From positions 1 to 55,676 of IMG/VR virus record IMGVR_UViG_3300046533_000339: a DNA stretch of 55,676 bases; one strand, given 5' to 3'. This DNA is from a virus. The stretch's first letter is position 1. The number at the start of each line of letters is the position of its first letter. Below are positions 3,275 to 14,411 of this stretch, piece after piece. The position numbers were made by a program, and so were the translations under genes. Under the pieces are notes generated by a model. It searched no databases, was not told the origin of the DNA, and saw nothing but the letters and a program-made list of their open reading frames with translations.

Positions 3275-3319
3275 CACGCCGATGCCAGCGGTGACTTCTG
3301 CCCCGCTGGCATCGGCGTG
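3275..3319 (+). terminator. Strong 17-bp hairpin terminator
   Basis: Bases 3275-3291 pair perfectly with 3303-3319 around an 11-base loop; the sequence after it (TTCTGCATTTC) is T-rich for this genome. It separates the small-gene cluster from the 347-residue gene. Confidence 0.8.
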
Positions 3320-5488: not shown

Positions 5489-5524
5489 GCCCCGGCCTGC
5501 TCACCCTCCCTGGCAGGCCGGGGC
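5489..5524 (+). terminator. 12-bp hairpin terminator
   Basis: GCCCCGGCCTGC (5489-5500) pairs with GCAGGCCGGGGC (5513-5524), 12-base loop, followed by TTCACCCTTGTT. Lies 26 bases after the stop of the 285-residue gene. Confidence 0.75.
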
Positions 5525-6686: not shown

Positions 6687-7214
6687 ATGCCGACGCTCAC
6701 GAGCTTCGGGGGTCTGGCTGACGGCACCAATCTCGCGCTTCGGCCGAGACCGGACGGCAACGTCGAGAAGTGGACGTTCTCCGAGGGCAAGCTGCACAAG
6801 GGGCCGCACCATCTGGACCTCAAGTTCTTCCAGGCCATGCTGGCCGAGGGGCTGATCTGGCCTGGTGACTTCTCCCCGCCTGTGGCAGGGGAGTGGTTCG
6901 AGTACGGGTCGTACCTGTATCTGACGCTGGCGAGTCAGGACACCGACAGGCAGACCAGGGCAGCCCAGTTCTACCGGGGCACCTACCGGCAACAGTCAAC
7001 GCTCACCGATCTGGCCGACACCGGGCACCGGGTGCCGGAACCGGAGTGGGCGAGCCCGAACCTGCTGGCGATGGCTCAACGAATCGACACCTTGCAGCAG
7101 GAAGCCATCCGTCTACGGGAGGAAACCATGAGGACACGCAACATCCGGACCTATGTCCGACGAGCCAAGGAGAACCTGGACTACCTGTCCACGATGCTCG
7201 GGCCTGAGTCGTGA
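6687..7214 (+). CDS. Early protein with C-terminal helices (175 aa)
   Basis: The start ATG 6687 lies one base after the previous stop. The N-terminal part is beta-rich (FEYGSYLYLTLAS), the C-terminal 60 residues are helical and basic, ending NIRTYVRRAKENLDYLSTM, which echoes the helix seen in the two preceding proteins. Function unknown. Its stop overlaps the next GTG. Confidence 0.75.
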   Translation: MPTLTSFGGLADGTNLALRPRPDGNVEKWTFSEGKLHKGPHHLDLKFFQAMLAEGLIWPGDFSPPVAGEWFEYGSYLYLTLASQDTDRQTRAAQFYRGTYRQQSTLTDLADTGHRVPEPEWASPNLLAMAQRIDTLQQEAIRLREETMRTRNIRTYVRRAKENLDYLSTMLGPES

Positions 7215-7579
7215 GCGCGGCACGTAGGCCGCGCACCTTGCGGGCTGTCAATGAACGGCAGGCGAGTGCGCGTGCCTTGATGCTGGCGTGCAAGGCCAGC
7301 ACCTGCCAGTGGGATCTGCTCGGCGCGGTCATCTATCTCGGGCAGGACCGGACGGGTCGGACGATCTGGGTGCACTCGATCCGGTGTGTCCGGTGCGGGT
7401 CGGTGCGGCGGGCGCACTACCCACCGCGCAGGACGAGGACGACTGACCGGATCGGGGGCTACAAGTACCAGCGGCCGCCAGGGTGGGAGGACATCCACGT
7501 GTACTGGGGTGACGCGCTGCAAACCCTGGTCGATGAGGGTCTGCTGGAGGTCAGCGACCAGCCTCTGCCGGAGGAGTGA
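7211..7579 (+). CDS. Zinc-ribbon-containing basic protein (122 aa)
   Basis: GTG 7211 overlaps the upstream stop (GTGA). CVRCGS around residues 59-64 and C27/C32 could make a metal site; the stretch RRAHYPPRRTRTTDR is strongly basic. A role at DNA or RNA is plausible but unproven. Last gene before the double hairpin region. Confidence 0.75.
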   Translation: MSAARRPRTLRAVNERQASARALMLACKASTCQWDLLGAVIYLGQDRTGRTIWVHSIRCVRCGSVRRAHYPPRRTRTTDRIGGYKYQRPPGWEDIHVYWGDALQTLVDEGLLEVSDQPLPEE

Positions 7580-7584
7580 GGTTT

Positions 7585-7617
7585 CCCTTGGTCCTGTCCG
7601 GGGTTCAGGACCAAGGG
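7585..7617 (+). terminator. 12-bp hairpin terminator
   Basis: CCCTTGGTCCTG (7585-7596) pairs with CAGGACCAAGGG (7606-7617), nine-base loop, followed by GATTGTCTTCC. It lies immediately after the stop at 7579. Confidence 0.8.
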
Positions 7618-7727
7618 GATTGTCTTCCTGCCTTACCCAATTTCCCTAGGTGATCCCGCCTATGGGTTGGGCAGGGGGTACTCCGGGTCCCGTCCGGCGT
7701 GGAAAACCGGACACTCACCCGGGGGCA

Positions 7728-7771
7728 GGACCGGACCGGGCCGACCGTGGTGGTGGGGCTCGGTCCGGTCC
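7728..7771 (+). other. Second long hairpin in the 7580-7877 gap
   Basis: Bases 7728-7742 pair with 7757-7771 (15 positions, one G-T pair, core GGACCGGACCG). A six-base stem GTCCGG/CCGGAC lies just upstream. The 298-base gap holds the 7585 terminator, these hairpins, a promoter and a palindrome; I see no gene in it. Confidence 0.55.
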
Positions 7772-7808
7772 GGGGGATCACTCAATGAACGGGGGTCACA
7801 TAGACACA

Positions 7809-7837
7809 TAGACACAGTCGGTTAACTCAAGTAAAGT
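7809..7837 (+). promoter_or_regulatory. Candidate promoter for the 7878 gene
   Basis: TAGACA (7809-7814) and TAAAGT (7832-7837) are 17 bases apart. Palindrome copy 8 fills the spacer and overlaps the -10 box, so a protein bound there would block the promoter. Confidence 0.5.
7822..7835. promoter_or_regulatory. Dispersed palindrome copy 8 (TTAACTCAAGTAAA)
   Basis: Copy overlapping the candidate -10 box of the 7809 promoter, 42 bases before ATG 7878. Confidence 0.7.
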
Positions 7838-7850
7838 ATTCACAAGTAAC

Positions 7851-7860
7851 AGCAACCAAC
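7851..7860 (+). repeat. Start-associated motif AGCAACCAAC
   Basis: Exact copy, 17 bases ahead of ATG 7878, followed by ATCAAGGAG as at several other copies. Confidence 0.65.
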
Positions 7861-7877
7861 ATCAAGGAGTTTCAACC

Positions 7878-8240
7878 ATGAGCACCACCATCCAGGACAC
7901 CGTCGCCAACGCTCTCAACGAGCGCGGCATGTCCAGCTACGTCCAGTCCGCACGGCCGGTCGTCGACCTGCTGAAGGCGCGGGAGCGGGACCTCGCCGAG
8001 GCCCTGCTCAGCTACGCCACCGATCTCGGTGCGGACTCCGACGAGGTCCGGGCCGAACTGAGCAAGCTCGGCATGGAGGTTCCGGACGCCGAGCCCGAGG
8101 ACGACGAGGACGACGACGACGAGTGGACCGACGAGCGGATCAACGCTGAGTACAAGTCGATCAAGGACATGCTCGACTCGCTCCGCTCCGACGTCGAAGC
8201 ACTGAAGACCGCCGCCCGACGGAACGGGATCACGGTCTGA
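7878..8240 (+). CDS. Acidic helical protein (120 aa)
   Basis: ATG 7878 after CAAGGAGTTTCAACC. Two helical regions flank a very acidic linker (PEDDEDDDDEW, about residues 72-82); the C-terminal helix carries repeated lysine/aspartate heptads suggestive of a coiled coil. Its own promoter and palindrome and the structured RNA right after it suggest independent control. A DNA mimic or protein-bridging role is conceivable from the charge, but nothing identifies it. Confidence 0.75.
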   Translation: MSTTIQDTVANALNERGMSSYVQSARPVVDLLKARERDLAEALLSYATDLGADSDEVRAELSKLGMEVPDAEPEDDEDDDDEWTDERINAEYKSIKDMLDSLRSDVEALKTAARRNGITV

Positions 8241-8242
8241 TC

Positions 8243-8342
8243 GTGAGCCGAGGGTGTCGGTTCGATCCGAGGAGTCCCGGGACTCCCCCGCAGCGATGAG
8301 CGCGGCACTTCAACGACCGAGGGCAATGGTGCCTCGGCTCAC
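8243..8342 (+). ncRNA. Candidate structured RNA closed by an 11-bp stem
   Basis: GTGAGCCGAGG (8243-8253) and CCTCGGCTCAC (8332-8342) are perfect complements 78 bases apart. Inside lies the perfect palindrome GGAGTCCCGGGACTCC (8271-8286), a small stem TCGG/CCGA (8257-8260/8267-8270), and GGCAC/GTGCC (8304-8308/8329-8333), which competes with the outer stem. No open frame fits. It may be a small RNA, a regulatory 3' end, or part of a composite terminator. Confidence 0.45.
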
Positions 8343-8351
8343 CCGTAAGCC

Positions 8352-8388
8352 CAGGCTGGCCGTCATAGCGCATCAGGCGGCCAGCCTG
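8352..8388 (+). terminator. 11-bp hairpin
   Basis: CAGGCTGGCCG (8352-8362) pairs perfectly with CGGCCAGCCTG (8378-8388), 15-base loop, followed by CTTGACC. It lies between two other large hairpins. Confidence 0.65.
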
Positions 8389-8396
8389 CTTGACCG

Positions 8397-8440
8397 GTGA
8401 CCGGGCCGGAGGCTGACGACGCTCCCTCCGGTCCGGTCAC
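8397..8440 (+). terminator. 16-bp hairpin
   Basis: Bases 8397-8412 pair with 8425-8440 over 16 positions with a single G-T pair and a 12-base loop. It is among the longest stems in the window and ends 36 bases before the next gene. Confidence 0.65.
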
Positions 8441-8476
8441 CACCACCCCCACCACCAACAGGAAAGGAATCAGCCA

Positions 8477-8767
8477 GTGGCTGACGATATGCGCTGGGAA
8501 TCTCCCCCGGTACCCGAGCACGGTCTTGACTGGGCCAGAGTCGCCGGGAATCTACGAGCCCATCCCGGCGAGTGGCTCCGCCTCGGCGACGGCATCTCGG
8601 TCTCCGTCATCAACGCCGTCCGACAGGCCAGCATCAGAGCCTTGCAACCCATCCACATCAACGGTCGGCCGGGCTTCGGCTACGAGGTGAAGACCAGGAA
8701 CAACGACCGGCTACTCGGCACGGCAACCCTGTACATGCGATACGTCCAGCAGGAAGGGGAGAGCTGA
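8477..8767 (+). CDS. Protein of unknown function before SSB (96 aa)
   Basis: GTG 8477 follows AGGAAAGGAATCAGCCA. The protein is compact and mixed alpha/beta with two tryptophans; WARVAGNLRAHPGEWLRLGDGISVS suggests a small fold with a turn-rich face. It overlaps the SSB gene (TGATG), so it is likely co-translated with it and may act in replication. Confidence 0.75.
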   Translation: MADDMRWESPPVPEHGLDWARVAGNLRAHPGEWLRLGDGISVSVINAVRQASIRALQPIHINGRPGFGYEVKTRNNDRLLGTATLYMRYVQQEGES

Positions 8768-9201
8768 TGCTTCCCCGTATCACGGTCGAGGCCAGGGTGG
8801 CAGCCGAGCCGGAGCTTCGGTTCTCCCAGACCGGGACGGCGATCCTGCGGCTGCGGGTCGTGTCGTCGGACCGGAAGAAGAATGATGCGACCGGCGAGTG
8901 GGAGGACTCAGACACGTTGTGGCTGGACGTGACGGCGTTCAACAAGCTCGCCGAGAACTGTGCCGAGTCGATCACCAAGGGGGATCTGGTCCTGATCCAG
9001 GGCAAGCTCCGGACCGAGGAGTGGACCGACCGGGAGTCCGGCGACAAGCGGTCCAAGATCGCCATGATCGCCGACGTGATCGCGGCCAGCCTGGTGTTCC
9101 GGGTGATCCCGCACGGCACTCAGTCCAGGGTGGCGGACCGGCCAGCACACCGCCAGCCGGATCCGTATGCCTACGCCGACGACAGCCAGCCGCCGTTCTG
9201 A
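8767..9201 (+). CDS. ssb: Single-stranded DNA-binding protein
   Basis: A 144-residue SSB that coats single-stranded DNA in replication and repair. Residues 1-105 follow the OB-fold pattern of bacterial SSBs (RITVEARVAAEPELRFSQTGTAILRLRVV, then WLDVTAFNKLAEN and KGDLVLIQGKLRTEEWTD). The linker is proline-rich and the end is DDSQPPF, the acidic tip that docks SSB partner proteins. Start ATG 8767 overlaps the previous stop. The short linker is normal for phage SSBs. Confidence 0.95.
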   Translation: MLPRITVEARVAAEPELRFSQTGTAILRLRVVSSDRKKNDATGEWEDSDTLWLDVTAFNKLAENCAESITKGDLVLIQGKLRTEEWTDRESGDKRSKIAMIADVIAASLVFRVIPHGTQSRVADRPAHRQPDPYAYADDSQPPF

Positions 9202-9235
9202 GGTCACCTTTCACGTGTTAGGTAGCCCGCTGCCG

Positions 9236-9265
9236 GTGGTTCAGCCCTGCCCTGGGCGGAACCAC
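9236..9265 (+). terminator. Hairpin after ssb
   Basis: GTGGTTC (9236-9242) pairs with GAACCAC (9259-9265), with an inner stem GCCC/GGGC (9244-9247/9254-9257). It lies 34 bases after the ssb stop. Confidence 0.6.
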
Positions 9266-9300
9266 TGGTGGTGGGTATCGTCGCCTCAGATCTGCTCAAC

Positions 9301-9314
9301 TTAACCCAAGTTAA
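9301..9314. promoter_or_regulatory. Dispersed palindrome copy 9 (TTAACCCAAGTTAA)
   Basis: Copy 22 bases before ATG 9337, in the gap after the ssb hairpin. Confidence 0.75.
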
Positions 9315-9336
9315 ATCAACAACGGAAGGATCGCGC

Positions 9337-9624
9337 ATGGCGAAGAAGCTGGACCTCACCCCCGAGGAGAGGGCCGCCCGAGACAAAGCCTTCAACGCCG
9401 CCCGGGGTGCGGCGGACAAGACGTTGCGGGATGCCCACGTCGATGAGTGGAACGGCTACTACCAAACCGAGCTGCGGGAACGCGGCTACACCTGGGAGCC
9501 GAAACCCAACCCGGAGGCAGCAGCACTGGACCAGATCACCGAGCTGCTGAGGACCTACCCGGAGCTGGCCGAGAAGCTGGCGGACCAGCTGATCCAGAGC
9601 ACCGAAGCACAACCCGTTCACTGA
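9337..9624 (+). CDS. Charged helical protein (95 aa)
   Basis: ATG 9337 follows CGGAAGGATCGCGC. The chain is almost entirely helical and highly charged (LTPEERAARDKAFNAARGAAD; ITELLRTYPELAEKLADQL). No cysteine, no membrane segment. It is a single-gene unit between the palindrome at 9301 and the hairpin at 9633. Function unknown. Confidence 0.75.
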   Translation: MAKKLDLTPEERAARDKAFNAARGAADKTLRDAHVDEWNGYYQTELRERGYTWEPKPNPEAAALDQITELLRTYPELAEKLADQLIQSTEAQPVH

Positions 9625-9632
9625 CGCAGGAA

Positions 9633-9665
9633 CCAGCCCGGCCGGACACGTTCCGGCCGGGCTGG
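9633..9665 (+). terminator. 13-bp hairpin terminator
   Basis: CCAGCCCGGCCGG (9633-9645) pairs perfectly with CCGGCCGGGCTGG (9653-9665) around ACACGTT, eight bases after the stop at 9624. Confidence 0.8.
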
Positions 9666-9684
9666 CGCACGACCGGGGTAGTTA

Positions 9685-9694
9685 AGCAACCAAC
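9685..9694 (+). repeat. Start-associated motif AGCAACCAAC
   Basis: Exact copy, 19 bases before GTG 9714. GTTAAGC just before it resembles a half palindrome. Confidence 0.65.
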
Positions 9695-9713
9695 CAACAG
9701 GGAAGGTGGAGTC

Positions 9714-9842
9714 GTGAACCACTGGGAAGAGGTGGCGCGTGACGTCATGACCATGCTGTCGCGCCGAGATATCAGTCCCGATCTGGCTGAGCGGTGGCTT
9801 CGCTACCTGGTCGACTATGCCGAGATGGGCGGCTGGGGGTGA
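9714..9842 (+). CDS. Small helical protein (42 aa)
   Basis: GTG 9714 follows GGGAAGGTGGAGTC. The product is helical with tryptophans (NHWEEVARDVMTML; LAERWLRYLVDYAEMGGWG). It overlaps the next gene by TGATG. Function unknown. Confidence 0.6.
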   Translation: MNHWEEVARDVMTMLSRRDISPDLAERWLRYLVDYAEMGGWG

Positions 9843-9997
9843 TGGTCACCGGCTACGAGGTCGGGATGTTCAACGACATCAGACGGATCGCGGAAGCCCT
9901 GGAGAAGATCGCGGACAGGCTGGACGTGATCGTCTCCAAGCTGGATCAGGTCAAGCCGGAGCAAGGTGGCGAGGCAACCAACGAAGGAAGGAACTGA
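9842..9997 (+). CDS. Small coiled-coil protein (51 aa)
   Basis: ATG 9842. Residues 9-38 form one amphipathic helix (FNDIRRIAEALEKIADRLDVIVSKLDQV) with leucine/isoleucine heptads, so it probably self-associates or pairs with a partner. The tail is polar. Function unknown. Confidence 0.6.
   Translation: MVTGYEVGMFNDIRRIAEALEKIADRLDVIVSKLDQVKPEQGGEATNEGRN
9973..9982 (+). repeat. Start-associated motif GGCAACCAAC
   Basis: One-mismatch copy lying inside the end of the 9842-9997 gene, 16 bases ahead of GTG 9999. Confidence 0.55.
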
Positions 9998-9998
9998 A

Positions 9999-10436
9999 GT
10001 GGTCAACATCGAGGAGACCAGGCTCGCGCTGAAGCGGGTCGAGGAAGCGGCGCAGGTGAGGATCCCGGTCATCGACTACGACGAGGTCCGGGAGGCCGTC
10101 TTCCTGGACGCGCGCCCGCCGGAGCTGGGCTGGGATCAGACGGGGTGGGTCAAGATCGGTCTCGTCCCGGAAGGTGTCTGCCTCACGGCCGGGTGTCTGG
10201 CCGGGCATGTCGCGATCGCGGACGGCTACACCGAGCCGGTGATGGACAGGTTCGACGCTGTGGTGGCGCTGCGGAATCCACAGACCGGGGACACACTGTG
10301 CTTCGCCGGGCCGGGGTCGGTGGGCTGGTATGCGCAGCACAAGCTGGGCCTGTCCGAAGATCAGGCCGACTGGTTGTTCCACGAGGACAACGACCTGGAC
10401 GACATGCGCCTGATCGTGGAGGACCTGTGCCGTTGA
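9999..10436 (+). CDS. Protein of unknown function (145 aa)
   Basis: GTG 9999 follows GGAAGGAACTGAA. The helical N terminus leads to a conserved-looking core with CLTAGCLAGHVAIADGY near residues 62-79 (two cysteines and a histidine) and an acidic end (HEDNDLDDMRLIVEDL). Proteins with a similar core are frequent in actinophages, but their role is unknown to me. Ends before the strong hairpin at 10461. Confidence 0.75.
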   Translation: MVNIEETRLALKRVEEAAQVRIPVIDYDEVREAVFLDARPPELGWDQTGWVKIGLVPEGVCLTAGCLAGHVAIADGYTEPVMDRFDAVVALRNPQTGDTLCFAGPGSVGWYAQHKLGLSEDQADWLFHEDNDLDDMRLIVEDLCR

Positions 10437-10460
10437 GCGACAATTGAACAGGTGAGATGT

Positions 10461-10494
10461 CGAGAGCCCGGTCCTGTGAGGGACCGGGCTCTCG
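10461..10494 (+). terminator. 14-bp hairpin terminator
   Basis: CGAGAGCCCGGTCC (10461-10474) pairs perfectly with GGACCGGGCTCTCG (10481-10494), six-base loop, 24 bases after the stop at 10436. Confidence 0.85.
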
Positions 10495-10499
10495 TCAGC

Positions 10500-14349: not shown

Positions 14350-14354
14350 CAAGA

Positions 14355-14390
14355 CGAGCCCGACCCTCGCCGCCACGAGGGTCGGGCTCG
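14355..14390 (+). terminator. 15-bp hairpin terminator (first of two)
   Basis: CGAGCCCGACCCTCG (14355-14369) pairs perfectly with CGAGGGTCGGGCTCG (14376-14390), six-base loop, directly after the stop at 14349. Confidence 0.85.
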
Positions 14391-14411
14391 CCAGGCGGGT
14401 AAATAAGACGC

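Follow-up and report, generated by a model that had tools for sequence, protein, structure and literature searches.

U-less hairpins conserved after an early gene of a phage clade, a candidate leaky terminator or 3′-end stabiliser before the SSB operon

GC-rich hairpins that lack a U-tract have been reported as terminators in the early region of phage phiC31 (via a citation in PMC5335608). Whether such U-less hairpins terminate transcription in actinobacteria is disputed, and in vitro work by others with mycobacterial RNA polymerase, as reported in the same source, gave no termination without a U-tract (PMC5335608). Mycobacterial I-shaped elements, such as TtsaD in the alr-groEL1 operon, lie between co-directional genes and lower downstream expression, possibly as a pause site or partial terminator; for these elements, orientation dependence and a reporter effect are described as measured (PMC5335608). 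Clusters of hairpins, averaging three, that follow bacterial stop codons have been described as terminators (Gupta and Pal 2021, PMC8355165); they were defined by bacterial RNA-seq between operons, and their adjacent hairpins begin near the stop codon, a tendency that is stronger where GC is high. Intergenic stem-loops also occur within operons that undergo selective RNA processing and stabilisation, where, in the clostridial cases described with mapped processing sites, they could set the ratio of products (PMC8219983). In Cluster K mycobacteriophages, 17-bp inverted repeats are found in intergenic gaps as part of the ESAS, for which a consensus sequence and a 13-bp repeat at start codons are described (PMC3203893). 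Our literature search for partial terminators between phage cistrons returned no pertinent paper.

Here we describe a hairpin cluster in the virus record IMGVR_UViG_3300046533_000339 (IMG/VR; 55,676 bases, 66% GC), which was analysed over its whole length and is referred to as the window. It codes for SSB, a primase/helicase-like protein, an exonuclease and a terminase. No isolate of this phage clade was found in our searches; the terminase matched 30 loci in bacterial genomes at 35-46% identity, with no close prophage among them, and Streptomyces dominate these loci, which is only a hint at the host. The cluster occupies a 236-nt gap between two co-directional genes, A and B, directly before SSB (Table 1), and B shares its last base with the first base of SSB. 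Gene A is predicted to fold into four helices (pLDDT 79, pTM 0.47) and has no PHROG match and no Pfam match at the Pfam cut-off. Gene B represents a small protein family that adjoins SSB in this clade, with the motif GEW...NAIRQG...FEVxTRNN, and has neither a PHROG match nor a convincing Pfam match. No conserved gene lies in the gap itself, B beginning only at 8477, which agrees with an earlier sequence-only reading that no gene fits there; the 47-48 aa open reading frames that span it were judged mechanical. Gene A looks like a transcription unit of its own, given a promoter-like site upstream (one found before A in the consensus scan, 0.3 expected) and two hairpins, 7583-7619 and 7728-7771, that precede this site.

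Table 1. Positions of the genes and structural features around the gap, in window coordinates.
Feature	Position	Strand	Description
Promoter-like hexamers TAGACA-17-TAAAGT, upstream of gene A	7809..7837	+	consensus scan, 9 of 12; not proof
Gene A	7878..8240	+	120 aa helical protein; homologues in 17 distinct relatives
Window-specific element	8243..8342	+	branched 78-nt loop closed by an 11-bp outer stem (8243-8253/8332-8342)
16-base perfect palindrome GGAGTCCCGGGACTCC	8271..8286	.	5/1000 shuffles as long
First hairpin of tandem pair	8352..8388	+	13 pairs, loop 11
Second hairpin of tandem pair	8396..8441	+	17 pairs (one G-U), loop 12, no U-tract after
Gene B	8477..8767	+	96 aa, conserved beside SSB; homologues at 11 viral-contig loci; alignment of 6
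SSB	8767..9201	+	phrog_44, E 1e-31

The individual stems listed by the sequence-only reading are all present. The arms of the outer stem, GTGAGCCGAGG and CCTCGGCTCAC, pair perfectly over 11 bp, and the palindrome lies between them. The hairpin given as 11 bp (8352-8362/8378-8388) reaches 13 pairs with a U-G and a further pair included, and that given as 16 bp (8397-8412/8425-8440, one of the 16 pairs being G-U) is really one pair longer; 7 nt separate these two tandem hairpins. As a whole, the gap folds at -117 kcal/mol (z -4.78; 0/200 shuffles as good), compared with z -2.15 for the opposite strand, and its raw stability is unexceptional, with 33 of 555 genome windows of 236 nt folding at least as stably. 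The first 105 nt taken alone give z -1.54 (15/200 shuffles as good), and a perfect 11-bp inverted repeat arises there in 2 of 1000 shuffles. No U-tract follows the hairpins of the window, either in their tails as read or in a plus-strand scan for a hairpin plus T-run over 8241-8476 (loop limit 8); they thus lack the second half of a canonical intrinsic terminator, which is a hairpin followed by a U-tract.

Against GenBank phages, positions 7000-10000 gave no megablast match, the whole gap gave chance matches covering at most 16% of the query, and neither gene B nor gene A (from the window or from the relative L134) had a homologue; against 36 related records the gap gave short stretches only (best E 5e-4 over 21 nt). 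Searching viral contigs with the single window proteins A and B returned no matches. Relatives were collected through a terminase search of viral contigs (214 loci, 80 kept), gene A being present at E up to 0.1 in 10 of the 36 records searched, and alignments of gene B and SSB added further loci. A gene A profile run over 258 sequences then gave 38 hits, which reduce to 18 distinct sequences, the window included. Dropped as duplicates (overlapping loci or identical contigs) were L131, L137, L139, L141, L143, L145, the main hit of L146, L178, L179, L180, L181, L183, L185, L187, L191, L126 and L001, and dropped as incomplete copies of gene A were L106 and L112. A second, weak hit in L146 (L146:1-402, E 1.6e-4) lies upstream of the main one and may be a diverged duplicate of gene A; it was set aside as a possible paralogue truncated at the start of the locus. 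L136 was kept though its gene A homologue is weak (E 4e-5).

All 17 distinct relatives carry a GC-rich hairpin of 12-18 pairs within 110 nt after the stop of gene A, the first hairpin beginning at +4 to +25; in L140 the uninterrupted stem is 10, an A-C pair lying inside a 15-pair stem. For each relative, no more than 1 of 100 dinucleotide shuffles reached a stem as good as its best one. Under a symmetric stem score that treats G-U and A-C alike, and with the scan extended to 240 nt for the window (where the hairpins begin at +112) as against 110 nt for other regions, a score of at least 30 was reached by all 18 post-A regions, window included, versus 34 of 900 shuffled regions; the same score was reached at 1 of 36 ends of the A coding sequence, in 3 of 18 stretches of 110 nt before A, and after SSB in 7 of 16. 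The stems of the relatives share no common sequence, so that place and structure are kept while the sequence is replaced. Four relatives (L130, L132, L136, L144) carry tandem hairpin pairs about 7-12 nt apart, and the window pair 8352-8441 looks the same. A single terminator, it had been argued, would need only one stem; these four loci, together with the hairpin-cluster terminators described for bacteria (PMC8355165), take the force out of that argument.

Read on the opposite strand, a G-U pair becomes an A-C mismatch. The near-pairs in the conserved stems comprise 28 G-U and 1 A-C, compared with 101:168 in shuffles of the same regions. This bias indicates that the constraint acts on the plus-strand RNA. 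Compensatory change, which the sequence-only reading had named as a test, is seen in the close pair L140/L142, where two inner pairs are changed on both sides (G-C to C-G and T-A to C-G) within an otherwise similar stem, and where the C-A mismatch of L140 is a T-G pair in L142; no relative carrying 8243-8342 was found in which the same could be looked for. The proposal of a structured RNA region is accordingly supported for the hairpin part, with 17 of 17 relatives, sequence turnover and the G-U excess behind it, and is without comparative support for the element in front.

As in the window, no U-tract follows the hairpins of the 17 relatives. In all 17 relatives the hairpins are GC-rich, come soon after a stop codon and lack a U-tract, so that by sequence they would belong with the U-less (I-shaped), phiC31-type terminators; in the window, the hairpins with short loops begin at +112 from the stop of A, behind the outer-stem element at +3. 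The nearest known system appears to be the set of U-less terminators in phiC31, as both concern GC-rich U-less hairpins after genes of a phage early region. The two show no sequence relation, however, and termination is the subject of the phiC31 work as cited, whereas for the window hairpins it is a deduction. Scored in the same way, 7 of 23 early stops of phiC31 are followed by a hairpin, none of these having at least 5 T in the next 8 bases, and its late stops about as often (6/19). In the window, a hairpin was scored after 7 of the 18 early stops tested and after 1 of the 20 late ones, with the gene A stop taken as a miss since its hairpins begin beyond +110. The lists of early and late stops were picked by the analyst from open reading frames and annotation without a gene caller. 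The phiC31 counts therefore do not support post-gene hairpins as a hallmark of early regions.

Further strong hairpins are present in the early (left) part of the window, at 3275-3319, 5489-5524, 7583-7619, 7728-7771, 9226-9275, 9633-9665, 10458-10497 and 14353-14392. Six of these begin at most 26 nt from the tested stops 5463, 7579, 9201, 9624, 10436 and 14349; the hairpins at 3275-3319 and 7728-7771 have no such assignment to a tested stop.

The distance from the last hairpin to the start of B is 21-36 nt in 8 of the 10 loci measured, window included, which is enough for a ribosome site but hardly more. These 10 of the 18 loci omit L132, L133, L144, L182 and L184, where B lies far downstream (an open reading frame was read between hairpin and B in the first three, the last two being judged by distance alone), and L135, L136 and L189, where the start of B was not fixed; in L127, gene B was recognised by eye. 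Given this short spacing in 8 of the 10 loci, polymerases that transcribe B and SSB probably pass through the hairpins, barring promoters within A or within the hairpins themselves.

Two kinds of variation were noted around gene A in the relatives. The extra open reading frame between hairpin and B in L132, L133 and L144 (about 88-127 aa) suggests a site where genes come and go, and in L182 and L184 B is equally far downstream. Upstream of A (up to 150 nt), perfect palindromes with arms of at least 6 and a spacer of at most 5 occur in 14 of 18 loci, compared with 306 of 1800 shuffles, for example in L129, L134, L140, L142, L182, L184 and L189; the window has none. Several are A+T-rich, such as GTTCAGTAACTGAAC (7+1+7), and differ in sequence from lineage to lineage, as operators would whose repressors diverge; others are GC-rich.

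Taken together, we think it likely, though with moderate confidence, that the hairpin cluster is a leaky U-less terminator or 3′-end stabiliser that keeps gene A expressed above B-SSB. The region would form the 3′ end of the gene A transcript and separate A from the B-SSB operon as punctuation: when transcription has passed A, the emerging RNA would fold into the tandem GC-rich hairpins, which would halt some polymerases or define where the A message ends, and the remaining polymerases would read through into B and SSB, leaving A in excess. From the conserved place of the hairpins, the RNA-level constraint and the lack of promoter room we infer that they terminate transcription or stabilise the message, that some polymerases read through, and that the expression ratio is affected. 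With no U-tract present, and given the reported in vitro failure to terminate without one, true termination at the window hairpins may be weak or host-dependent.

The mycobacterial elements of the TtsaD type are likewise U-less hairpins between co-directional genes, and the orientation dependence and reporter effect described for them (PMC5335608) would be expected, by analogy, of the window hairpins. The bacterial hairpin clusters (PMC8355165) find their counterpart in the tandem pair with the outer-stem element before it; those clusters are defined between operons, whereas here the next gene is co-directional and close, and the locus is known from sequence. The ESAS repeats (PMC3203893) resemble the window in placing inverted repeats in phage gaps, but the hairpins of this clade share no sequence and sit at the stop codon.

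A related account dispenses with termination: the hairpins would be barriers in processing and stability, the A-B-SSB message being cut or trimmed and the 3′ end of A protected from 3′-5′ exonucleases, again giving more A than SSB. Like the clostridial selective processing operons, in which an intergenic stem-loop could set the product ratio (PMC8219983), it draws on the missing U-tracts in the window and the 17 relatives, the scant promoter room that 8 of 10 loci leave ahead of B, and the RNA-level constraint on the transcribed strand. A leaky terminator fits the same data, however, and the promoter-like site before A fits A as its own unit, so that we regard a purely processing role as a tentative alternative and a rather unlikely one.

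The part peculiar to the window is 8243-8342 alone, and by itself its fold is unremarkable (z -1.5). The element is absent from the 17 relatives examined, no homologue was found among related sequences, and blastn gave only short chance matches, with no second copy, in the window and the collected sequences. Its outer stem begins 2 nt after the stop of A, where most relatives have their first hairpin, and the element shifts the tandem pair about 105 nt downstream. Loops in L133 and L147 are unusually large (42 and 26 nt), and the outer stem could be a hairpin with an enlarged loop of this sort. Under the preferred reading, a leaky terminator or stabiliser, the element would be a lineage-specific addition and most simply a looser further member of the cluster.

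A regulatory role for the element, as a small RNA or a regulated antiterminator, had also been suggested, and fares less well. No Rfam family matches at gathering scores (the best hit at a lax threshold has 23.7 bits against a gathering score of 52.5), so that no covariance model places it among curated riboswitches, sRNAs, tRNAs or tmRNAs, and the small-RNA suggestion finds no sequence conservation either. ARAGORN finds no tRNA or tmRNA in the region; a tRNA or tmRNA remnant, suggested by GGTTCGATCC at 8259-8268, was rejected on this ground and on the lack of any Rfam tRNA family even at E 10. For the switch there is no positive evidence, and the alternative stem said to break the outer stem, GGCAC/GTGCC (8304-8308/8329-8333), leaves most of it paired: only two bases are shared with the outer arm, and 9 of 11 outer pairs persist when a fold is forced to contain the alternative stem, at -44.5 versus -47.6 kcal/mol.

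A better switch candidate is a competition of three copies of CCGAGG (8248, 8267, 8317) for the single CCTCGG (8332-8337), though the motif was chosen after the sequence had been viewed. The element might then be a lineage-specific attenuator or small RNA that alters tandem-hairpin formation or read-through. This is the only site in the window with three CCGAGG within 75 nt, at least 3 copies arise in 2 of 1000 shuffles, and the perfect 11-bp repeat is equally rare; against this, the competing folds (-41.4 and -37.8 kcal/mol) are 6 to 10 kcal/mol weaker than the best, where an attenuation switch has exclusive folds of similar energy kept in relatives, the element lacks homologues, Rfam matches and an exceptional fold, and the tandem hairpins share no bases with it in the predicted fold. 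We consider such regulation improbable. More improbable again is its specific form, in which the competition would govern how far polymerase continues past the tandem hairpins towards SSB, perhaps in response to ribosomes that finish A (a terminating ribosome would cover the 5′ arm of the outer stem).

That the palindromes act as DNA, as a replication origin or protein-binding site beside SSB or as a small inserted element with 11-bp terminal inverted repeats, is very improbable: the 16-base palindrome, the inverted ends and the nearby SSB would suit it, but the G-U excess in the conserved hairpins is unlike DNA-level symmetry (an argument that does not extend to 8243-8342, whose outer stem has no G-U), no direct repeat flanks the element by eye, and a small inserted element was rejected, as its ends, searched as an exact pattern, gave 0 matches in viral contigs and blastn gave the chance matches noted above.

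Most of the hairpin cluster is thus ordinary and of a kind already known, and what is peculiar to this phage is the folded piece of about 100 bases in front of it. A hairpin that is kept after one early gene while its sequence is replaced marks a working RNA signal, and the 18 diverged natural hairpins at this one locus, single or tandem, form a ready panel for the study of U-less termination in actinobacteria.
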